Shown in pieces: positions 53,846 through 64,000 of a DNA stretch of 64,000 nt (within the stretch, counting starts at the first letter, position 1; each line of letters starts with the position of its first letter). The notes below the pieces were generated by a model. The model saw only the letters and a program-made list of their open reading frames with translations, had not been told where the DNA came from and did no database searches. Made by a program: the position numbers and the translations under genes. Source of the stretch: Zoogloea oleivorans (GTDB lineage: Bacteria > Pseudomonadota > Gammaproteobacteria > Burkholderiales > Rhodocyclaceae); NCBI RefSeq assembly GCF_008107625.1, contig NZ_SDKK01000007.1:90099-154098 (forward strand). Direction: 5' to 3'.

Positions 53846-54018
53846 CGTAGAGCCTCTGTCGGTGTTGGGATGGTGCCATTTCACGCCTGTGCGCGTACTC
53901 CCTCAATTCCCCCTCCGACCTACTCCCAAAGTCGAATTGTTCGCTGCAGCAACCGGGCGGACAGTGCAGTCCATATCGCAGTCAGCGGTGTGGTTTTTCG
54001 ACCTTGAGGAGAACGCAG

Positions 54019-55713
54019 ATGAACACGACGACAGTGGATGCCGTAACAAGCGGCATCGGGAGCGGCGGCGCCAGCGCGACGCTCCATCGCAAGATTGGTT
54101 GGGCAGGCGCCTTCTGGGTGGCCAGTGGCGTACCGGCCCTGGTGCTCTTTTCCATTGGCTCCATCGCCGCCACGGTGGGCAAACCGTCATGGGCGGTATG
54201 GATCATTTCGATCGCCTTCGGGTTCCTGCAATCCTTTGCCTACGCAGAGATCGCCGGCCTCTTCCCCCACAAGTCCGGCGGTGCGTCGGTGTATGGGGCG
54301 GTGGCCTGGGTGCGCTACAGCAAGATGCTGGCGCCCCTGTCGGTGTGGTGTAACTGGCTGGCCTGGTCGCCGGTGCTGGCCATCGGCTCGGGGCTGGCAG
54401 CAGGCTACATCCTGTCCATCCTGTTTGCGCCGGACGCCGCCATCAACACCTGGCAGATCACCCTGCTCGACCTGAGTGGCGTGAAAGCCGGCCTGGCCCT
54501 GCGCATCAACGCCACCTTCGTGCTCGGCGCCGCCGTGCTGCTGGGCGCCTTCGCCATCCAGCACCGCGGCATCCTGCAGGCCGCCCGCATGCAGATGATC
54601 CTGGGCATCGCGGCGCTGGCCCCGCTGATGCTGATCGGCCTGTGGCCGCTGCTCTCCGGTGACATCCCCACCGCCAACCTGACGCCGCTCTACCCGCTGG
54701 CCAAGGACGCCAGCGGTGCAGTGATCGACGGCAACTGGGACATGGCCGGCATCACGCTGATTGCCGGCGGCCTGTTCATGGCGGCGTGGTCTACCTACGG
54801 CTTCGAGACGGCGGTCTGCTACACCCGCGAGTTCCGCAACCCGCGCACCGACACCTTCAAGGCCATCCTGTACTCGGGCCTGCTGTGCATCTTCGTATTC
54901 ACCGTCGTCCCGCTGGCCTTCCAGGGCTCCATCGGCCTCGGCCAGCTGGTCACGCCGGCAGTGCTCGACGCAGCCGGCAACGTGATCACCCCGGCGGTGT
55001 ACGACGGCATCCTGTCGCCGGACATCTACAGCGGCATGGGCGTGGCCCACGCCATGGCCCACATGCTGGGCGGCGGCACGCTGGTCGAACACGTGCTGAT
55101 GGCCATGCTGGTGCTGGCCCTGGTGCTGTCGATCATGACCTCGATGGCCGGTTCGTCGCGCACCCTCTACCAGGCCTCGGTGGATGGCTGGCTGCCCAAG
55201 TACCTGTCCAACGTGAATGGCAACGGCGCCCCCACCGCCGCGATGTGGACCGACCTGGGCTTCAACCTGCTCCTGCTGCTGATGTCCGACTACGTCTTCG
55301 TGCTGGCCATCTCCAACGTCTGCTACATCCTCTTCAACTTCCTCAATCTCAACGCCGCCTGGATCCACCGCATCGACCGTCCGCGCTGGCCGCGTCCCTT
55401 CAAGGCCGCCACCTGGCTGCTCGCAACAGGCACCGTCCTGGCCTTTGCCAACCTGGCACTGATGGGCATGGGCGCCGACATCTGGGGAGCCGGCACCCTG
55501 GCCACCGGCCTGCTGGCGGCCGCGCTGATCCTGCCGGTGTTCTTCTACCGCCACTACATCGTCGACAAGGGCCAGTTCCCCGCCGCGATGCAGGAAGACA
55601 TGCACCTGGGCAGCGAAGAAGGCGTCGGCACCCGCGCCGGCATCCTGCCCTACCTGACCCTGGCCGGCGGCGCGGCGGTAATCGCCATCGCCCACGCCGT
55701 GGCCGTCGTCTGA
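54019..55713 (+). CDS. APC-family amino acid/amine permease
   Basis: This 564-residue membrane protein has about twelve helices. It carries the APC motifs IGSIAATVGKPSWAVWIIS, AYAEIAGLFPHKSGGASVYG and AAWSTYGFETAVCYTREFRN. It is the first gene of the seven-gene cluster. The ATG at 54019 has GAGGAG upstream. Amino acid/polyamine/organocation carriers import amino acids or amines, so this is the likely importer of the N-methylated substrate of the enzymes that follow; the substrate itself is not known. It is followed after eleven bases by the DmmA-like gene. Confidence 0.9.
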   Translation: MNTTTVDAVTSGIGSGGASATLHRKIGWAGAFWVASGVPALVLFSIGSIAATVGKPSWAVWIISIAFGFLQSFAYAEIAGLFPHKSGGASVYGAVAWVRYSKMLAPLSVWCNWLAWSPVLAIGSGLAAGYILSILFAPDAAINTWQITLLDLSGVKAGLALRINATFVLGAAVLLGAFAIQHRGILQAARMQMILGIAALAPLMLIGLWPLLSGDIPTANLTPLYPLAKDASGAVIDGNWDMAGITLIAGGLFMAAWSTYGFETAVCYTREFRNPRTDTFKAILYSGLLCIFVFTVVPLAFQGSIGLGQLVTPAVLDAAGNVITPAVYDGILSPDIYSGMGVAHAMAHMLGGGTLVEHVLMAMLVLALVLSIMTSMAGSSRTLYQASVDGWLPKYLSNVNGNGAPTAAMWTDLGFNLLLLLMSDYVFVLAISNVCYILFNFLNLNAAWIHRIDRPRWPRPFKAATWLLATGTVLAFANLALMGMGADIWGAGTLATGLLAAALILPVFFYRHYIVDKGQFPAAMQEDMHLGSEEGVGTRAGILPYLTLAGGAAVIAIAHAVAVV

Positions 55714-55724
55714 GGAGCCCCGCC

Positions 55725-56306
55725 ATGATGCACTCCGACATCACGAGCCGCCCGACCTACCGGGCCCTGGAACCCGACCTGGCCGGCAGCAAGCACCTGC
55801 TGGTGATCGAGGGCGAAACCCTCCTGACCGGCCGCCTCGAAGCCCTCACCGACACCTTCGCCCCGGTAAATGACAAGCTCCACACCTGGCTGGTGGGGGC
55901 ACCGACAGCAAGCAGCGGGCCGGGCAAGGTGTGGCACCTGGAGAAGCTGGTCGACGTGCTGGACCTCTTCGCCTGTGCCACCCGCGACTACGGGATGGGT
56001 GACCGCCTCTACGTACAGGGCACCGAGCCCTTCCTGTGGTCGGTCACCACCGCCGCCTCGATCATCGGCTTCGGCCCGAACCAGGTGCAGCTTCATCACG
56101 CCGGCAGCCTGCGCCGCCGGGTGTGGTGCACCCACTGTCACACGCTCACCGAAAACGTCACCGCCAGCATCGTTCCCTGCGCCGGCTGCGGCCGCCACCT
56201 GCTGGTGCGCGACCACTTCTCCCGCCGCCTGGGCGCCTTCATGGGCGTCATGATCGACGCCGAAGCACCGGGCGCCATCCCGGCCATCGAGGAGGCCTTC
56301 GCATGA
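55725..56306 (+). CDS. DmmA-like subunit of a heme-dependent N-demethylase
   Basis: This 193-residue protein ends in the DmmA-like zinc-ribbon domain: CTHC (about 143) and CAGC (about 160), then RHLLVRDHFSRRLGAFMGV. Together with the next two genes it makes the three-component dimethylamine monooxygenase/oxidative N-demethylase set. In that system it is a non-catalytic subunit that probably joins the reductase to the haem subunit. The start at 55725 has GAGGAG upstream; a second Met follows at once. Its stop overlaps the reductase start as ATGA. Confidence 0.85.
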   Translation: MMHSDITSRPTYRALEPDLAGSKHLLVIEGETLLTGRLEALTDTFAPVNDKLHTWLVGAPTASSGPGKVWHLEKLVDVLDLFACATRDYGMGDRLYVQGTEPFLWSVTTAASIIGFGPNQVQLHHAGSLRRRVWCTHCHTLTENVTASIVPCAGCGRHLLVRDHFSRRLGAFMGVMIDAEAPGAIPAIEEAFA

Positions 56307-57253
56307 TCGGCGAAACCCTCCTACTCAAGGTGAGCACCGTCACCGACATCGCGCCCAGCCTGCGCCATGTGCGTCTGGTGGCGGCCACCGGAAGCAAGCT
56401 GCCCCCGGCGGCGGCCGGCGCCCACATCCAGCTGACCCTGGCCGGCGAAACGCGGACCTTCCGCAACGCCTACTCCCTGGTCAGCCGGCCGGGAACCCGC
56501 GACGCCTGGGAAATCATCGTGCGCCGGGTGCCCACCTCGCGCGGCGGCTCGGCCTTCATCCATGAAGAACTGCAAGTGGGCGACACCATCGAGGCCAGCT
56601 GGCCGGGCAACCTGTTTCCGCCGGTACGCACCGCCCGGCGTCACCTGATGATTGCCGGCGGCATCGGCATCACGCCCTTCCTGTCCTACCTGGCCGAATT
56701 CGCCTTCAGCGGCGCGAACTACGCCCTCCACGTGTGCTGCCGCGAAGAAGAGCAGAACGTCTTCGCCCCGTGGATCGCCGGACAAACGGGCGTGGCCTTT
56801 CACTGGGACGCCGATGGCCAGCGCCTCGACATCCCGGCCCTGCTGGCCACCCAGCCCGTCGGCACCCACCTCTACGTATGCGGCCCGGCCGCCATGAACG
56901 ACGAGGTGATCGCTGCCGCCGCGGCGGCCGGCTGGCCCGCCAACCACGTGCATTGCGAGCACTTCGGCTCGGCCCTGTCCGGCGGCGAGGCCTTCCGCGC
57001 CTTCCTGGCCCAGTCCGGCATCGAGGTGGAGGTGGGCGAGGACGAAAGTCTGCTCGAGGCCATCGAGCGCGCTGGCGTCAAGGCGCCCTGCCTGTGCCGG
57101 GGCGGCGCCTGCGGCGTCTGCATGACCCCGCTGCTGGAAGGCGAGGCCGAACACCGCGACCACGTCCTGTCCCCCGCCGAGCGCGAATCCGGCCGCCTGA
57201 TCATGCCCTGCGTATCGCGGGCCAAGAGCGGCCTGCTCGTACTCGATCTGTGA
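56303..57253 (+). CDS. PDR/VanB-type oxidoreductase (reductase component)
   Basis: This 316-residue electron-transfer protein has an FMN domain (RNAYSLVSRPG near 52), an NAD(P)H domain (IAGGIGITPFLSYLAEF, and VCGPAAMND), and a C-terminal plant-type 2Fe-2S domain with CRGGACGVC and a final Cys in MPCVSRA. It would feed electrons from NAD(P)H to the haem subunit encoded next. The overlap with the DmmA-like gene and the 22-base gap to the haem gene support one complex. In Methylocella/Roseobacter dmm clusters the equivalent component is a reductase of the same architecture. Confidence 0.9.
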   Translation: MIGETLLLKVSTVTDIAPSLRHVRLVAATGSKLPPAAAGAHIQLTLAGETRTFRNAYSLVSRPGTRDAWEIIVRRVPTSRGGSAFIHEELQVGDTIEASWPGNLFPPVRTARRHLMIAGGIGITPFLSYLAEFAFSGANYALHVCCREEEQNVFAPWIAGQTGVAFHWDADGQRLDIPALLATQPVGTHLYVCGPAAMNDEVIAAAAAAGWPANHVHCEHFGSALSGGEAFRAFLAQSGIEVEVGEDESLLEAIERAGVKAPCLCRGGACGVCMTPLLEGEAEHRDHVLSPAERESGRLIMPCVSRAKSGLLVLDL

Positions 57254-57275
57254 AACCCACATCAAGGAGCGCGTC

Positions 57276-58361
57276 ATGACCATCGCCTTCAAGCCCGAAG
57301 AAACCTTCCGCGGCGACTACAGCTACCGCAACAGCGACGCCGCCATCCTGCGCTTCCCCTTCCCCTTCCCGGAAGACAAGTACATGTACAGCGTCAACAT
57401 CGAGCCGCACACCCGCAGCGGCCCGAGTGACATCTTCCTGCGCCCCTTCGACGTCGATGAGCACTACATCGCCGAATGCCGCGACCGGGCCATCACCCTC
57501 GAGCGCGACCCCGGCCGCTATCAGGCCCTGCCGCACATGATGCTGGCCCAGTGGGACACCCTCGAACTGCTGATGGAGAACCTGTCGGCCGACTACCCGG
57601 CACTGTTCTCCCTCACCAAGGAAGGCGACGACTTCGGCAGCCGCTGGACCTGGATCAACCGCCCGCTGGGCATCGAGCAGAGCTTCATCTTCGGCGACGC
57701 CGACACCCTGCCCTGCGAGCCCTTTGAATACATCACCCGTCAGGCCCAGGGCGACTTCGCGATTTGCGATCAGCGCGACGACAACCTCTACATGGACGCC
57801 GGCATGGTCACCGCCCAGGCCGACTGGTCGCTGGAATTCGACGTCGGCATGAGCTTCATGGAATGGCACGGCCCGGTGCCGCTGGCGCATCAGGCCGGCG
57901 TCTTCGAGCGCGCCCTCAAGTACCTGCTGATGCTGCGCCTTGGCCAGCCGGTGCGCCGCCTCAACTGGACCATGAGCATCAACCCGCGCCTCGACACCTC
58001 GCCCGAAACCTACCCCGAGTGGGGCCCCGACCGCGCCAGCGTGACCCCCGACAACGCCGGCGACAAGGTGCACCTGCGCGTCGAGCTGCAAACCCTGTGG
58101 CGCCTGCCGCGCAGCAACGCAATCCTCTTCCCGATCCGCTGCTACCTGGCGTCGCTGGACGATCTGGCCCGCGTGCCCAAGTGGGGCAAGCGCCTCAACC
58201 GGGTGTTGTCCACCCTGCCGCCGCAACTCGTCGAATACAAGGGCCTGACCCGCTACCTGCCGGCCGCGCTGGAATGGCTGGCCAAACATGACGACGGCGC
58301 CGAATTGCCGGTGGGCACCGAAGCAGGTGTCACCACGCTGACGCCACGGGTGTCGGACTGA
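57276..58361 (+). CDS. heme-dependent oxidative N-demethylase catalytic subunit (DUF3445)
   Basis: This 361-residue protein matches DUF3445, the PAS-fold haem subunit of HODM and DMA monooxygenase, which oxidises secondary amines such as dimethylamine to a primary amine plus formaldehyde. Family features include RWTWINRPLGIEQSFIFGD near 125, FMEWHGPVP near 195 and VHLRVELQTLWRLPRSNAIL near 270. The start has AAGGAG. The last codons (RVSD, stop) come from a REP palindrome that overlaps the stop, so the native C-terminus has been replaced. Substrate range (dimethylamine or other N-methyl amine) is open. Confidence 0.9.
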   Translation: MTIAFKPEETFRGDYSYRNSDAAILRFPFPFPEDKYMYSVNIEPHTRSGPSDIFLRPFDVDEHYIAECRDRAITLERDPGRYQALPHMMLAQWDTLELLMENLSADYPALFSLTKEGDDFGSRWTWINRPLGIEQSFIFGDADTLPCEPFEYITRQAQGDFAICDQRDDNLYMDAGMVTAQADWSLEFDVGMSFMEWHGPVPLAHQAGVFERALKYLLMLRLGQPVRRLNWTMSINPRLDTSPETYPEWGPDRASVTPDNAGDKVHLRVELQTLWRLPRSNAILFPIRCYLASLDDLARVPKWGKRLNRVLSTLPPQLVEYKGLTRYLPAALEWLAKHDDGAELPVGTEAGVTTLTPRVSD

Positions 58362-58373
58362 AGTCCGACCCAC
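58352..58373. repeat. REP half-element overlapping the stop of the N-demethylase gene
   Basis: GTCGGACTGAAGTCCGACCC with a further AC matches the REP palindrome of the liu operon. It supplies the TGA stop of the upstream gene and lies in the gap before the next one. Confidence 0.88.
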
Positions 58374-58415
58374 AAGAACACACCCCAACACTCAAACCCA
58401 CAAAGGAAATCTGCC

Positions 58416-59798
58416 ATGAACGCACTCACCCACCTCCCCCCCGCAGGCATCGGCGCCGAATGGAGCCCGCACTGGCTGTTGTCCCCCGAGCAAAAGGCCC
58501 TGCAGACCGAGCTGATTGCCCTGTGCGACACCACCCTGCGCCCCAACGCCATCGAGAGCGACAAGGGTTACGTGTATCCGCGCAAGAACTTCGAAGCCCT
58601 GGCCGCCATGGGCCTGATGAGCCTGACCATCCCGAAGGAACTCGGTGGCCGCGGTGAAAGCCACCTGTGCGCCGCCATGGTCGTCGAGACCATCGCCCGC
58701 TACGGCTGCCCCTCCACCGCCATGTGCTACACCATGCACCTCGGCGCGTGTGCCGCCGCGCTGCTGCGCCACCACGACAACGAACGCCTCAAGGACATCC
58801 TGCGCCGCGTCGACAAGGACGTGCTGATCGGCACCCTGTCCTACTCCGATCCGGAAACCGGCTCCCACTTCTGGTACCCCATGTCGTCCCGCGCCGAACG
58901 CACCGACACGGGCTGGAAAGTCTTCAAGAAAGCCTCCTGGACCACCTCCGGCGGCTTTGCCGACTGGTACATCATCCAGACCACCTCGCCCGATTTTGGC
59001 GGTGACTACTCCAACCTGTCGTGCTTCCTGGTCACCAAGGACCAGATCAAGGCCGACCCCGCCAACTGGGACGGCCTCGGCATGCGCGGCAACCAGTCCG
59101 GCCCGATCTCGGTGGATGGCGTAGAGATTGCCCCCGACGCGCTGGTCGGCCCGGTGGGTGACGGCGCCAAGTCGAACGACGAAGTGGTCGATCCCTTCTT
59201 CCTGGTGTGCTCTTCCGCCTGCTGGAACGGCATCAGCCTGGCCGCCATGGACATCACCAAGAACCACACCACCCGCAAGGTGCACAACGACGTGGGCATG
59301 CGCGTGGCCGACTACCCGACCATCCAGGACTACGTCGGCGAATGCCTGATCGACACCAACGCCAGCCGCAGCTACGTCTACCTGGCCGCCAAGGCGCTGG
59401 ATGACCAGACCAACAACTGCGACTGGTCGGCCCACGCCGAAGTTGGCCACCTGCCGCGCACCGCGCTGCTCAACTGGCTGTGGCAGGTCAAGTTCTTCTC
59501 CTCCAAGAACGTCACCTACGTCGTCGACAAGATGCTCCACGCCTGCGGCGGCACCGGCTACAAGCCGGCCCTCGGCATCGAACGCCTGCTGCGTGACGGC
59601 AAGGCCGGCTGGGTGATGGGCCCCACCAACGAAGTGCTGCGCCAGTTCGTCGGCAAGGCCGCGCTGCTCGGCTTTGAAGTGCTCGACTACTGGAACCAGT
59701 CGGTCAACCAGCGCGTGCTGTCGAATGAGCTGAAGAAGATGAGCAAGGACGAGAAGGCCGCCTTCGCCACCAAGCTCCTCGCCGAAGCCCAAGCCTAA
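58416..59798 (+). CDS. acyl-CoA dehydrogenase-like protein, probable flavin-dependent monooxygenase
   Basis: This 460-residue protein has the acyl-CoA dehydrogenase fold: FEALAAMGLMSLTIPKELGG, GTLSYSDPETGS, KKASWTTSGGFADWYI and, near the end, ERLLRDGKAGWVMGPTNEVL. The C-terminal Glu of medium-chain dehydrogenases is Gly402 here, and the isovaleryl-type helix-G Glu is also missing. Such active-site loss is seen in the DszC/SfnB-like class D flavin monooxygenases, which use free FMNH2. A flavin reductase gene lies 92 bases downstream. The likely substrate is a pathway amine; this is inference. Confidence 0.75.
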   Translation: MNALTHLPPAGIGAEWSPHWLLSPEQKALQTELIALCDTTLRPNAIESDKGYVYPRKNFEALAAMGLMSLTIPKELGGRGESHLCAAMVVETIARYGCPSTAMCYTMHLGACAAALLRHHDNERLKDILRRVDKDVLIGTLSYSDPETGSHFWYPMSSRAERTDTGWKVFKKASWTTSGGFADWYIIQTTSPDFGGDYSNLSCFLVTKDQIKADPANWDGLGMRGNQSGPISVDGVEIAPDALVGPVGDGAKSNDEVVDPFFLVCSSACWNGISLAAMDITKNHTTRKVHNDVGMRVADYPTIQDYVGECLIDTNASRSYVYLAAKALDDQTNNCDWSAHAEVGHLPRTALLNWLWQVKFFSSKNVTYVVDKMLHACGGTGYKPALGIERLLRDGKAGWVMGPTNEVLRQFVGKAALLGFEVLDYWNQSVNQRVLSNELKKMSKDEKAAFATKLLAEAQA

Positions 59799-59890
59799 GG
59801 ACCCGCTTGCGATCAGGCCTGCCGCGCGTCGCGACCCCGGTCCGACGCGCGTCACGGCTTCCTCGCAGGCGCAAACACTCCGGAGATCCC

Positions 59891-60406
59891 ATGCCCACGC
59901 CCAATTGCCACTCCGCCCCCTTCGACGGACGCCTGTTCCGCCGGGTCCTCGGCCTGTTTCCCACCGGCGTCACCATCGTCACCACCTGGGACGCGGACGG
60001 ACGGCCAGTGGGGGCCACCGTCAGTTCCTTCAACACCGTGTCCCTCGACCCCCCGCTGGTGCTCTTCAGCCTGGCCAAGAACATGGCCTGTTGCGAAGCC
60101 TTCGCGGCCGGCGGCCCGCTGGCCATTCATGTGCTGGGAGACACGCAGGAAGACCTCTCCAACCGCTTCGCCCGGGGTGGCGGCGACAAGTGGGCCGATC
60201 TCGCCTACGCTGCCGGCCAGCATGGCGCGCCGCTGATCGAAGGCACCCTCGCCACCTTCGAATGCCGGCCCTACGCCCAATACCCGGGCGGTGACCACAC
60301 CATCTTCGTCGCCGAAGTCAGCCAATTGCGCTTTCGCGACGGCGAACCGCTGGTGTTTTGTGCCGGCGGCTACCGCCAACTGGCAGAACGGGAGGTCTGC
60401 GCATGA
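59891..60406 (+). CDS. HpaC/flavin reductase-like protein
   Basis: This 171-residue FMN-binding split-barrel protein starts with FRRVLGLFPTGVTIVTT and GATVSSFNTVSLDPPLVLFS, the classic flavin-reductase-domain motif. It would supply reduced FMN to the monooxygenase encoded before it. The ATG has GGAGAT upstream; an upstream frame to 59807 is not supported. Its stop overlaps the next start (ATGA), so it is translationally coupled to the DUF1989-GcvT gene. Confidence 0.9.
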   Translation: MPTPNCHSAPFDGRLFRRVLGLFPTGVTIVTTWDADGRPVGATVSSFNTVSLDPPLVLFSLAKNMACCEAFAAGGPLAIHVLGDTQEDLSNRFARGGGDKWADLAYAAGQHGAPLIEGTLATFECRPYAQYPGGDHTIFVAEVSQLRFRDGEPLVFCAGGYRQLAEREVCA

Positions 60407-62295
60407 ACGACATCGTCCCCCCGGGCCTTGCCGAGCCGGAGGGCGACCCCTTCCTGCTCGCCGCCGCCGCACCGCCGCCGGCACCACAGGCTTTTCCCGA
60501 ACCGCTGGCCGTGATCCGCATCACCGCCGCCAGTGCGCGCGCCTTCACCCTCAAGGCCGGCCAGTTTTTGCAGGTTATCGACGTGGAAGGCCGCCAGTGT
60601 TCTGACCTGCTGGCCTTCGACGCCGCCGCGCTGGCCACTGGCGAAGAATGGGGCCTCGACCCCACCGTGACGCGCACCCTTGCCGGCGCCGCCTACCCGC
60701 AGCCGGGCCTGCACGCCAAGTACTTCGACGCGCGCATGCAGCCGCTGCTCGAAACCGTGCAGGACACCGTCGGCCGCCACGACGCCTTCGCACTGGCGTG
60801 CACCGCCAAGTATTACGAAGACGCCGGCTTTCCCGGCCACGCCAATTGCAGCGACAACTTCAACGCCGTGCTGGCGCCCCTCGGCATTCGTCCGCGGGCC
60901 GGCTGGCCGGCCATCAACTTCTTCTACAACACCTTCATCCAGCCCTGCGGCACCCTCGGCTTTGCCGAACCCTGGTCGAAACCCGGCGACTACGTGCTGC
61001 TCAAGGCCATGAAGGATCTGGTGGTGGCCGTATCGTCCTGCGCCGACGACATCGACCCCGCCAACGCCTGGCAGCCCACCGACATCGAGGCGCGCATCTA
61101 TGACGCCGCCCATTCCTTCCCCCGCGCGATGGCCCACCGCATGACGCCCGACTCCCCTGCCCGCCTGACCCGCCCGACCGCCTTCGCCCCGGTCACCGAA
61201 ACCCTCACCCGCGACTTCATCGACTACAAAGGCTTCTGGCTGCCACGCAGTTTCGTCGGCCACGGCACCCTGGCCGAATACTGGGCCTGCCGCGAGAAAG
61301 TGGCGGTCATGGATCTGTCGGCCCTGCGCAAATTCGATGTGTCCGGGCCTGATGCCGAAGCCCTGCTGCAAAAAGTGCAGACCCGCGACCTGCGCAAACT
61401 TGCCGTCGGGCAGATCGTCTACACCGCCGTATGCCACGCCCACGGCGGCATGATGGACGACGGCACCGTCTTTCGCATGAGCCGCGACGTCTTCCGCTTC
61501 GTCTGCGGCGAAGACACCACCGGCCTGTGGCTCAAGGAACAAGCCGCCGCCGGCAACTTCGACGTGCATATCCGCGACACCACCGACGCCCTGCACAACC
61601 TGGCCGTGCAAGGCCCCAAGAGCCGCGAACTGCTGAACAAGATCCTGTGGACCGCCCCGGTTCAGCCAACAATCAGCGAACTCGGCTGGTTCCGCTTCAC
61701 CGCCGCACGCCTCGGCGGCCCCACCGGCATCCCGCTCGTCGTATCACGCACCGGCTACACCGGCGAACTGGGCTATGAACTGTGGTGCGCCCCCAAGGAC
61801 GGCCCGGCCGTATGGACGGCGGTGATGGAAGCCGGCGCCACCCCGCTCGGCTTCGACGCCCTCGACATGCTGCGCATCGAAGCCGGCCTGGCCTTTGCCG
61901 GCCACGAGTTTTGCGACCAGACCGACCCCTTCGAAGCCGGCATCGGCTTCACCGTCGCCCTCTCCAAGCCCGAAGACTTCATCGGCAAAGCCGCCCTCGA
62001 AGAACGCAAGGCCCACCCCCGCCGCAAACTCGTCGGCCTCGCCATCGCCAGCAACGAACCGGCCAGCCACGGCGACGGCATCTACCTCGGCCGCGCCAAA
62101 GTCGGAGAAATCACCAGCACAGTGCGCTCACCGGTCCTCGGCACCCAGATCGCCCTGGCGCGGGTCGATGTCGCCTACTCCCCCCTCGACACCGCCCTGC
62201 AGATCGGCCAACTCGACGGCCACCGCAAACGCCTGGACGCCAAAGTGGTGGCGTTTCCGCACTACGACCCGACCAAGGCGCGCGTGAGGGCTTAA
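60403..62295 (+). CDS. DUF1989-GcvT fusion, TMAO-demethylase-like, THF-dependent
   Basis: This 630-residue protein joins an N-terminal DUF1989 domain (about 30-225, with GRQCSDLLAFD, CSDNFN and SSCADDIDPANAWQPTDIE) to a C-terminal aminomethyltransferase domain (about 265-625, with AVMDLSALRKFDVSGPDA and VSRTGYTGELGYEL). The same pairing occurs in Tdm, which splits trimethylamine N-oxide to dimethylamine and formaldehyde and passes the formaldehyde to tetrahydrofolate. This protein may do likewise, or may catch formaldehyde made by the haem N-demethylase. It ends the cluster; the repeat array starts 18 bases later. Confidence 0.85.
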   Translation: MNDIVPPGLAEPEGDPFLLAAAAPPPAPQAFPEPLAVIRITAASARAFTLKAGQFLQVIDVEGRQCSDLLAFDAAALATGEEWGLDPTVTRTLAGAAYPQPGLHAKYFDARMQPLLETVQDTVGRHDAFALACTAKYYEDAGFPGHANCSDNFNAVLAPLGIRPRAGWPAINFFYNTFIQPCGTLGFAEPWSKPGDYVLLKAMKDLVVAVSSCADDIDPANAWQPTDIEARIYDAAHSFPRAMAHRMTPDSPARLTRPTAFAPVTETLTRDFIDYKGFWLPRSFVGHGTLAEYWACREKVAVMDLSALRKFDVSGPDAEALLQKVQTRDLRKLAVGQIVYTAVCHAHGGMMDDGTVFRMSRDVFRFVCGEDTTGLWLKEQAAAGNFDVHIRDTTDALHNLAVQGPKSRELLNKILWTAPVQPTISELGWFRFTAARLGGPTGIPLVVSRTGYTGELGYELWCAPKDGPAVWTAVMEAGATPLGFDALDMLRIEAGLAFAGHEFCDQTDPFEAGIGFTVALSKPEDFIGKAALEERKAHPRRKLVGLAIASNEPASHGDGIYLGRAKVGEITSTVRSPVLGTQIALARVDVAYSPLDTALQIGQLDGHRKRLDAKVVAFPHYDPTKARVRA

Positions 62296-62313
62296 CTACA
62301 CCCTGCGAAGTCC

Positions 62314-62607
62314 ATGTTGGGCGGTGAACATTCAATGTTGCGGCATGCGCATTGAATGTTCACCGCCCAATGTTCTTTGTTGGCGCGTGCGAGAAGGATG
62401 TTGACGGCTGCATGAAGCAATCTGACCCGGCAATGAAGCATGTTGACGGGTCAACATATCAATCCGATGCGTCGGAACATCAATCCGATAGTCCCGAACG
62501 TTAATCTGATCGATCAGATTGATGTTCGGGACTATCGGAATCCTTCAAAGACGGCGCAATGTTCAATGTTGGGGCCTCAACATTGAATAAAGAGCGGGCA
62601 GATTCCT
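62314..62607. repeat. second 21-bp-period array (AATGTTG/AATCYGA core)
   Basis: Units begin at 62314, 62335, 62356, 62377, 62398, 62419, 62440, 62461, 62482, 62503, 62524, 62545, 62566 and 62587: an exact 21-bp step for at least fourteen units. Cores read ATGTTG, AATCTGA or AATCCGA; spacers are GC-rich and vary. Larger palindromes lie on this grid: a 21-bp perfect stem (62317-62337 with 62350-62370, a 12-base loop) and a two-part stem (62485-62499 with 62524-62538, inner 62503-62511 with 62512-62520). The right end meets an insertion sequence. Confidence 0.85.
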
Positions 62608-64000
62608 GAATCCGTGGCCGCCACTTTCGCGCCTGGCAGGCTGTCCGCATAGCGCCGTGAAATGGGTTTTGAATTGAAACTTGAGCCCGTATTTCGCATG
62701 AAACCGCATCGCCAGACAAAATTGACGCGTGTTTGCACGGCCAAATCCGGGCTTGCGCCGGCTTTCGCTATGGACGGACGAGCGTTCACCTGCCTGGCGG
62801 CATCGAATGGCGACCCACGGGGAAGTGCCTCAGCCGGAGAACTGGAGCAGGGTCTGGTAGTGACGCTCGAACACGGTGAAGGCGGCGCAGCGCTGGCCAA
62901 GGCCCAAGGTCAGACGCCGGGCATGCGTGATGACGCGGGCGGCGACGCCGATGATTTCCTGCATCACGGTCTTCAGGCGCCGCCGCTTGGCGGGGTGGCG
63001 AACCGGGCTGTCGGGCTCGATCAGGGTCGCCTGGCCGATGGCGCGCAGAATGTTGAAGGCCAGCACGGCCAGGGACAGCACCAGATCGTTGGTGGCGAAT
63101 TTGCCCGAAGGCAGGCGCTCCAGGTCCAGATCGGTCTTGAACTCGGAGTGAAACTGCTCATGGGTGCCGTGTGCCTGGTACAGCGCGACGATCTCGGCGA
63201 CGGGCAGTTCAAGGCTGGTGAGCCAGCCTTCGATCTCGAGATCGGGCATCAGTAGGATCTGGCCGTCGCGATCGATCGTGCGCTCAATCAGATGCATCAC
63301 CCGGTGCATCGTGACTTTGGTCCCGGCGAATTTGCGGGTGAGGGGTTCGACAACGTACGTTTCGCGCTTGCCCGCGCGCGGATGCGACCAGACGGTGGCA
63401 GGGTCCGCGGCGAGGCGCTCGTGGAGGGTGGCCACCTTGAAACGGCGCGGGTTCCACTTGACCAGCCAGTCCACCGGCCCCGCTTCGCGCGCGGCGGCCA
63501 GAGCCACGAAGATCGCGGCGCCATCGAAGCCCGAGTCGGCGCGCACCAGGAGCGGCAGCGCCGTCACCGCCCGCGCGCGCGGCAGCAGGCGGCGCAGGAA
63601 ATCCGGCGTCTCCGAGGCCGAATGCTGGGTGCCGGGGCGCAGTTCGAGCCCGAGGCAGTAGCCTTCCTCGGCCAGATAGCCGGCAATCGGCGCATAGCCG
63701 TCGAAGCCCATGTAGGTGCGCCCCACGCCTTCCTTCTTCGTGCCGCTGTTGTCGAGGGTGAAGACATCGAAGTCCAGCGCCAGATGGCCGGTGGAGAGCG
63801 GCGTGAGGGTCGGTTTGGCGCGCGCCAGGAGGCGCTCGTTGGCCTCGTCCAGCGCCCTCAGTGCGCTGTCGCCGGCCTCGCCCAGGGCGTCCATGCGTTG
63901 GCGCAGCGTCGGCGAGGACGGTACCGTCGAGAGGTCCAGCGCATCGCGGAAGAAGGCGTCGCCGCGCAAGGATTCGATGGCGTCAAAGTCGGACTTCCCG
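62605..64000 (-). mobile_element. IS1380-family insertion sequence (partial, runs off window)
   Basis: The element contains the transposase gene and, to its left, about 220 bases without a gene. The outer end is probably near 62605, where a CCTGAATCCG-type terminus would fit the CC-starting inverted repeats of the family; the partner repeat lies beyond 64000, so this boundary is not proven. It abuts the second repeat array, which it may have entered. Confidence 0.7.
62830..64000 (-). CDS. IS1380-family transposase (5' end outside window)
   Basis: The frame is open to the window edge (GKSDFDAIESLRGDAFFRD at the right), so the start codon lies beyond 64000. It shows the DDE-type features of the family: LALDFDVFTLDNSGTKKEGV (first Asp region) and GYDG-like MGFDGYAPI, then LVRADSGFDGAAIF (second Asp), and the later HGTHEQFHSEFKTDL segment with the catalytic Glu region. 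At least 390 residues are visible and no frameshift is seen, so the gene may be intact. Confidence 0.85.
   Translation of the reverse strand, partial: GKSDFDAIESLRGDAFFRDALDLSTVPSSPTLRQRMDALGEAGDSALRALDEANERLLARAKPTLTPLSTGHLALDFDVFTLDNSGTKKEGVGRTYMGFDGYAPIAGYLAEEGYCLGLELRPGTQHSASETPDFLRRLLPRARAVTALPLLVRADSGFDGAAIFVALAAAREAGPVDWLVKWNPRRFKVATLHERLAADPATVWSHPRAGKRETYVVEPLTRKFAGTKVTMHRVMHLIERTIDRDGQILLMPDLEIEGWLTSLELPVAEIVALYQAHGTHEQFHSEFKTDLDLERLPSGKFATNDLVLSLAVLAFNILRAIGQATLIEPDSPVRHPAKRRRLKTVMQEIIGVAARVITHARRLTLGLGQRCAAFTVFERHYQTLLQFSG

Follow-up and report, generated by a model that had tools for sequence, protein, structure and literature searches.

What do an acyl-CoA-dehydrogenase-like protein and a flavin reductase do in the middle of a gene cluster for the breakdown of methylated amines? 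The question is raised by a 64,000-nucleotide stretch of Zoogloea oleivorans DNA (contig NZ_SDKK01000007.1, positions 90,099-154,098), hereafter the window, to which all coordinates refer unless another contig or locus is named. Seven genes, all on the plus strand, were read as open frames at 54019-62295, and five of them belong to the known trimethylamine (TMA) route: a permease for trimethylamine N-oxide (TMAO), the dimethylamine monooxygenase genes DmmABC and the TMAO demethylase Tdm. The remaining two encode a protein with the acyl-CoA dehydrogenase fold (ACAD; 58416-59798), recognised from alignments, an AlphaFold model and Foldseek, and a short-chain flavin reductase (FR; 59891-60406; PF01613, 141.4 bits). 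On the strength of genome context, we consider it quite probable that the pair constitutes a two-component, ACAD-fold (group D) TMA monooxygenase, with ACAD as its proposed large component and FR as the proposed supplier of reduced flavin, and that it is a non-homologous replacement of the known TMA monooxygenase Tmm.

Three points single out TMA as the proposed substrate: the permease is by score one for TMAO, the tested metal-site residues of Tdm are kept, and ACAD with FR occupies the place that Tmm has in other Tdm genomes. The permease (54019-55713), a member of the APC superfamily (PF13520), reached 840.5 bits against the equivalog model NF053774, which has a cut-off of 690. It is followed by a DmmA-like subunit of dimethylamine monooxygenase (55725-56306; PF22289, 80.3 bits; PF22290, 46.4 bits; NF041259, 105.1 bits against a cut-off of 60), a DmmB-like FAD/2Fe-2S reductase subunit (56303-57253; PF00111, PF00970 and PF22290) and a DmmC-type alpha subunit of the haem-dependent oxidative N-demethylase (HODM) of secondary amines (57276-58361; PF11927, 226.9 bits against 25). 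Residues 1 to 341 of the latter align with a solved haem-dependent oxidative N-demethylase (5lte) from the Protein Data Bank (PDB) at E=1.1e-146. The haem subunit, DmmA family protein and FAD/2Fe-2S reductase by which a DmmABC/HODM system is recognised are thus all present and contiguous. According to PMC5520151, dmmABC converts dimethylamine to methylamine in Ruegeria pomeroyi and corresponds to Msil_3607-3609 in Methylocella silvestris.

ATGA overlaps read in the sequence join DmmA to DmmB and FR to Tdm, and the remaining intergenic gaps are 11, 22, 54 and 92 bases. From this spacing we infer that the seven genes would be transcribed as a single unit. A scan of 53850-62800 gave no match to a sigma-70-like promoter (0.6 expected) and nine terminator-like sites against 5.1 expected, the latter count being uninformative. 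An earlier note on this DNA, made from the letters and their open reading frames, had described an N-demethylation cluster of seven co-directional genes; the order and overlaps that it gave are confirmed, Pfam and NCBIfam back its identities, and its haem-dependent secondary-amine demethylase (then labelled DUF3445, which we equate with the present PF11927, HODM_asu-like) is upheld by PF11927 and 5lte. The permease, which it counted as extra to known dmm clusters, is not so: it scores as a TMAO permease, and the TMAO permease gene tmoP is named among methylotrophy-island genes in PMC4543880. We accordingly rejected the notion of a novel permease and a novel Tdm fusion, since both belong to the known TMAO pathway.

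The last gene of the cluster (60403-62295) encodes PF09347 (DUF1989), PF01571 (GCV_T) and PF08669 (GCV_T_C) within one protein, and matches the M. silvestris Tdm structure 9q59 at E=3.6e-238 and 9q5a at 7.2e-236. Its score against NF053776 (1052.5 bits) falls below the equivalog cut-off of 1100: positions 155-763 of the 763-position profile are matched, while positions 1-154 are not, and the N-terminal DUF1989-like domain is absent. For these two reasons we do not file it as a full NF053776 member, and regard it instead as a variant expected to act as Tdm does. It shares with 9q59 the DUF1989 and GCV_T core and the tested metal-site residues, and differs in lacking the N-terminal domain. The zinc cysteines and the histidine and aspartates of the iron site are given in PMC12560246 as C263, C279, C343, H276, D198 and D346, a numbering from which 130 is subtracted to obtain that of the window protein. 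D68, C133, H146, C149 and C213 are identical in the window Tdm and in all 75 Tdms aligned with it, and D215 and D216 are each kept in 74 of the 75. The likeness to Tdm seen in the earlier note stands, since the metal residues are kept; the role changes, to a step that follows the pair and precedes the haem enzyme.

Of the 75 aligned sequences, 55 are ACAD-linked Tdms and the other 20 come from genomes that lack ACAD, among these G464 (L128 in the alignment), which has no Tmm either. No column separating the two sets at 85% was found, and the idea of a functional group made up of the ACAD-linked Tdms was rejected. Judged by the length of the open frame, the N-terminal domain is also missing from the compared cyanobacterial Tdms (L052-L078) and from Zoogloea and Azoarcus loci such as L008-L010, L013 and L014. 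Other Zoogloea and Azoarcus loci have longer Tdm frames (a statement of length, not of homology), and in most other ACAD-linked lineages the frame has room for the domain. A constant association of ACAD clusters with a shortened Tdm was likewise rejected, as the frames of Xanthobacter, Caballeronia, Labrys and others are long enough. PMC12560246 calls the N-terminal domain ubiquitous in Tdm homologues, and argues that M. silvestris Tdm is unable to coordinate tetrahydrofolate, to which the earlier note would have formaldehyde passed.

The occurrence of ACAD and Tmm was compared in two whole-genome samples, each centred on an ACAD genome: 398 Pseudomonadota, the window's genome included, and 339 members of the cyanobacterial phylum, centred on G801. 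ACAD was called at 1e-30 in the first sample and at 1e-100 in the second, and Tmm (NF058570) at E<=1e-60 in the first sample and in G801. Tdm was found in 27 of the 398 Pseudomonadota, 25 of which have Tmm and one of which, the window's own, has ACAD; Tmm is missing from the window's genome, in which NF058570 has no match at that threshold, and from G464. Three cyanobacterial genomes have Tdm, with Tmm beside it in G824 and G934; ACAD occurs solely in G801, which has no Tmm. Pooled, the 30 Tdm genomes divide into 27 with Tmm only, two with ACAD only, one with neither and none with both, and removal of the two centres leaves 28, of which 27 have Tmm, none ACAD and one neither. This last genome, G464 (L171), has a divergent Tdm (47% identical) adjoining frames that, judged by eye, resemble parts of a binding-protein transporter, and is perhaps a user of TMAO only.

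We also assembled 50 ACAD genomes, hand-thinned from 80 ACAD loci by leaving out close relatives. They were chosen before Tmm was searched for in them, and L032 and L046, in which Tmm was already known, were kept. Tdm was present in 48 of the 50 (E<=1e-80) and Tmm in four (L032, L042, L046 and L049). The two ACAD genomes that lack Tdm at this threshold are that of L053, a locus with two Tdm pieces, and that of L044, a metagenome-assembled genome (MAG). A further ACAD genome, G393, which is 64% complete, gave no Tmm match at E<=1e-40. The L053 locus belongs to Leptolyngbya sp. BC1307, in which ACAD is kept and the adjoining Tdm is seen as two pieces (L053:13452-14047). The explanation that we regard as the best includes the proposal that members of this ACAD family have repeatedly taken the place of Tmm, to which they are not homologous.

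L003, L054 and L084 belong to one genome, G393. The 80 loci are the best 80 of 100 relatives from a scan of a genome collection. They include Zoogloea, Azoarcus, Caballeronia, Xanthobacter (X. aminoxidans among them), Labrys, several Rhodospirillales and many cyanobacteria, together with MAGs labelled Acidobacteria, Gemmatimonadota, Latescibacterota, Armatimonadetes and others. Such labels may mislead for single contigs: L004, filed as Thiobacillus, has an ACAD 100% identical to that of the window. The family is rare, occurring in two of 399 genomes of the window's own order at E<=1e-100. A plasmid search at E<=1e-40 returned four records, all of them distant (30-32% identity).

The full seven-gene order, on one strand, recurs in 13 of the 80 loci, one of which (L011) ends inside Tdm; these are labelled Zoogloea, Azoarcus, Parazoarcus or plain Proteobacteria MAGs, with ACADs 94% identical. 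ACAD, FR and Tdm follow one another in 25 loci, and in 34 no other gene of the seven lies closer than FR to ACAD on its strand, counts that take in the query genes only, so that other genes may lie between. The earlier note had proposed a search for the same order in other genomes and had said that absence of the pair from all related clusters would refute its scheme; the pair is retained in many. Among the 44 loci with 9 kb on both sides of ACAD, 38 have Tdm within 10 kb, 28 FR, 22 DmmC, 18 the permease, 11 a GlnT-family (glutamine-synthetase-family) gene, seven MgsC and two Tmm. After thinning at 85% identity, which began from 66 aligned loci (the 68 rows of alignment A2 minus the window and L054), Tdm lies near ACAD in 10 of 12 loci and FR in six of 12. 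By arithmetic estimate, chance alone would put a Tdm gene no more than 10 kb from any one gene of a 5 Mb genome in about 0.4% of cases. Its recurrence in 13 of the 80 loci shows that the seven-gene arrangement is not due to chance. Seven loci also hold a small conserved protein (a 167-residue frame at L030:9439-9939 and its counterparts in six others) which, where it was placed, lies upstream of ACAD or beside MgsC; it had no NCBIfam match at E<=1e-10 and no Pfam match at E<=0.001. Zoogloea dura has, about 4 kb upstream of its seven-gene cluster, a further dmm set of divergent sequence (L012:3-1420, minus strand; DmmB 64% and DmmA 53% identical), and PF11927 occurs in two genes of its genome.

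It is the cyanobacteria that argue most cleanly for a shared function of ACAD and Tmm. In the Tmm genomes L169 and L170, a PhyH-family protein, SBP, c9 and a GlnT-family protein are encoded around Tdm and Tmm, and the same four genes surround ACAD and Tdm in many, but not all, ACAD cyanobacteria: the neighbourhood is kept and the oxygenase exchanged. The cyanobacterial ACAD/Tdm neighbourhoods often contain a PhyH-family oxygenase, a primary-amine oxidase and, following Tdm, an orphan protein of about 170 residues with no Pfam match at E<=0.001 (L075:2914-3807; L052:3042-4982; L078:14357-14863). Among 18 cyanobacteria bearing ACAD or Tdm, 13 gave no HODM (PF11927), the Obscuribacterales MAG of L048 being uncounted. 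The PhyH protein is a candidate for the dimethylamine step in these organisms.

Is the protein itself compatible with such a function? The AlphaFold model of ACAD (predicted local distance difference test 83.2, predicted template modelling score 0.84) has the acyl-CoA dehydrogenase fold according to Foldseek, at 17-24% identity to the matches listed; ACAD does not match the Tmm model NF058570 and its fold is a different one. The 67 other aligned members of the family are 58-96% identical to the window protein. G402 aligns with a glutamate of 3pfd and F261 with a glutamate of 4o5m, an isovaleryl-CoA dehydrogenase (IVD). We take these glutamates, at the MCAD-type and IVD-type positions respectively, to be the catalytic base of the dehydrogenases. 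F261 and G402 are invariant in all 68 aligned ACADs, so that both catalytic positions are lost, and the protein lacks the glutamate by which an acyl-CoA dehydrogenase is recognised. A role as a fatty-acid enzyme was rejected on account of this loss and of the linkage to Tdm. Six aromatic residues (F152, W153, Y154, F261, W270 and W399) are invariant in the same 68 sequences and could, speculatively, line a pocket for a small amine.

The two features that mark a group D two-component system, an ACAD fold and a separate flavin reductase, are both present, and FR adjoins ACAD in the window. The NCBIfam models for DszC, HsaA and HPAH gave weak matches to ACAD, far below cut-off, and DszC and DnmZ are among its solved relatives; 3m9v and 4kcf, which also appear in the structure lists, are KijD3. 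The models nearest to FR are those of the HPAH reductase, FerA, HsaB and StyB, all of which scored under their cut-offs, and 5zc2 and 1rz0 are among its 22 PDB matches. ACAD thus shares with DszC, HsaA, the HPAH oxygenase, DnmZ, KijD3 and ACIAD0428 the fold, the separate reductase and, as proposed here, the oxygenation of a heteroatom; it differs in forming a separate family and in the small aliphatic amine proposed as its substrate. ACIAD0428, a group D (ACAD-fold) two-component enzyme of A. baylyi, converted dimethyl sulfoxide (DMSO) to dimethyl sulfone (DMSO2) in preliminary assays, as stated in PMC13352529. An ACAD fold can therefore, on that account, oxygenate a small methylated heteroatom compound.

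In the mechanism that we propose, FR would reduce free flavin with NAD(P)H, and ACAD would bind the reduced flavin and add oxygen to form a C4a-hydroperoxyflavin. This C4a-peroxyflavin would then pass one oxygen atom to the nitrogen of TMA, yielding TMAO, and the permease would take up external TMAO in addition. By homology and context, Tdm is predicted to cleave TMAO to dimethylamine and formaldehyde, and DmmABC (55725-58361) to turn dimethylamine into methylamine, again with formaldehyde. Methylamine would be carried on into glutamate-linked intermediates by homologues of GMAS and MgsABC. The earlier suggestion of a reduced-flavin monooxygenase acting on a tertiary amine is favoured by genome context; its substrate, put as a tertiary or longer-chain N-methyl amine, remains a tertiary amine and is narrowed to TMA.

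The later steps have counterparts elsewhere in the genome. At contig C69:182488-183789, one protein exceeded the cut-off of the type III glutamate-ammonia ligase family, which we take to be the family that holds GMAS. Homologues of MgsA, MgsB and MgsC, named by gene order and by their glutamine amidotransferase, GXGXG and glutamate synthase domains, adjoin this gene, some 30-34 kb downstream of Tdm on the same contig. Directly before the Mgs genes is an open frame of 970 residues with a GcvT-like C-terminal part, our guess for which is Mgd or a sarcosine-oxidase subunit. Every step from TMAO to beyond methylamine thus has a candidate gene in the genome, and the permease, Tdm, DmmABC and GMAS/MgsABC steps are supported by homology together with context.

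Set beside the tdm-tmm-dmmDABC clusters (that of Aminobacter NyZ550 and the genes of M. silvestris and Ruegeria pomeroyi), the window's cluster likewise unites Tdm with DmmABC, has GMAS and Mgs elsewhere and would lead from TMAO through dimethylamine to methylamine; a TMAO permease is known in M. silvestris too. It differs in that ACAD and FR replace Tmm, in the missing N-terminal domain of Tdm and in having no separate dmmD-like GcvT gene, GcvT-like sequences being located elsewhere on the contig. Compared with Tmm, a class B flavoprotein monooxygenase, the pair has the same proposed reaction (TMA to TMAO) and the same place before Tdm, but a different fold, a separate reductase and a mechanism of another class. 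No ACAD-type TMA monooxygenase was described by title or abstract in the open-licence papers that searches listed, those on growth of Xanthobacter on TMA, on Zoogloea or DUF1989 in connection with TMA and on cyanobacterial TMA monooxygenase included. Starkeya novella is listed as TMA-negative, which carries no weight for or against the ACAD reading.

Several observations weigh against oxidation of TMA by the pair. The sole ACAD genomes in the two samples are their centres, which were chosen for ACAD; apart from these and G393, the ACAD genomes were found by way of ACAD itself, and the genome counts are uncorrected for shared ancestry. Four of the 50 ACAD genomes carry Tmm as well, and in L032 and L046 it lies between ACAD and Tdm, so that replacement is not strict; Tmm may there be transitional, or redundant, or a hint at another substrate. 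Two of the 50 had no Tdm at E<=1e-80, and the Tdm of G779 is split into two pieces, which lie on separate contigs. Of the 44 loci, 16 have no FR near ACAD, and none was found near it in the cyanobacterial loci. Where FR is not near, reduced flavin would come from elsewhere, as in A. baylyi, in which a single reductase serves several oxygenases (PMC13352529). By fold and by sequence, ACAD is nearer to dehydrogenases than to characterised group D enzymes; the Foldseek ranking is headed by acyl-CoA dehydrogenases, with the monooxygenase 5z8t at rank 11 and DszC at rank 33. Finally, no assayed enzyme of this ACAD family was found in the open-licence papers seen.

The most serious competitor, which we nevertheless regard as unlikely, is a group D monooxygenase for some other substrate, be it another N-methyl tertiary amine or dimethyl sulfide, merely combined with TMAO breakdown. 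Tmm oxidises dimethyl sulfide too, and the two-component monooxygenases of A. baylyi are described as promiscuous in PMC13352529; moreover, the Tmm of those four ACAD genomes would be redundant if both enzymes made TMAO. Such a substrate sits poorly with the 46 ACAD genomes of the 50 that have no Tmm at E<=1e-60 and the 48 that have Tdm, and with the absence of any genome with both oxygenases among the 29 Tdm genomes of the two samples that have either. A different chemistry is conceivable, in which ACAD acts as a flavin dehydrogenase, removing a methyl group directly from TMA or another amine by hydride abstraction and handing the electrons to a carrier, with FR serving something else. This would suit the acyl-CoA dehydrogenases that are its closest solved structures by fold and sequence, as well as the confinement of FR to 28 of the 44 loci, none of them cyanobacterial. 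Direct demethylation of TMA would, however, bypass Tdm, which accompanies ACAD in 48 of the 50 genomes; both catalytic bases are lost, and in 34 of the 80 loci no other gene of the seven lies closer to ACAD than FR does. We hold it to be very improbable. We give just as little credence to the pair being an accessory to the pathway, for instance in a second oxidation of dimethylamine or methylamine, with TMA never a substrate and imported TMAO the sole source. The TMAO permease of the cluster speaks for this, as does G464, which has Tdm without a known TMA oxidiser; but Dmm is already in the window, and an accessory role leaves unexplained both the anticorrelation with Tmm specifically and the similar cyanobacterial neighbourhoods. 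A TMA monooxygenase that replaces Tmm remains the reading that we prefer.

Downstream of the cluster, an IS1380-type transposase is encoded on the minus strand (62830-63969; Pfam/NCBIfam). Between it and the Tdm stop, 62310-62590 contains nested palindromes and imperfect repeats with spacings of 21, 42 and 189 and of 21 and 21 bases, an array that looks like a multi-repeat transposon end.

Taken across the family, these results make it fairly likely that bacteria possess a second, structurally unrelated class of TMA monooxygenase, ACAD-fold and two-component, with members in Pseudomonadota, in cyanobacteria and in MAGs labelled Acidobacteria, Gemmatimonadota, Latescibacterota and Armatimonadetes; it would accompany Tdm, mostly in genomes that lack Tmm, and would escape tmm surveys. 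If so, TMAO formation would have evolved on two different flavoprotein folds, and the same Tdm, fed by two unrelated oxygenases, would offer a natural swap experiment. The gene tmm has been proposed as a functional marker, as the title of a 2012 paper cited by PMC4543880 indicates. If ACAD makes TMAO, genes annotated 'acyl-CoA dehydrogenase' would hide a sink for TMA, and surveys that rely on the tmm marker may miss TMA-using organisms, cyanobacteria included.

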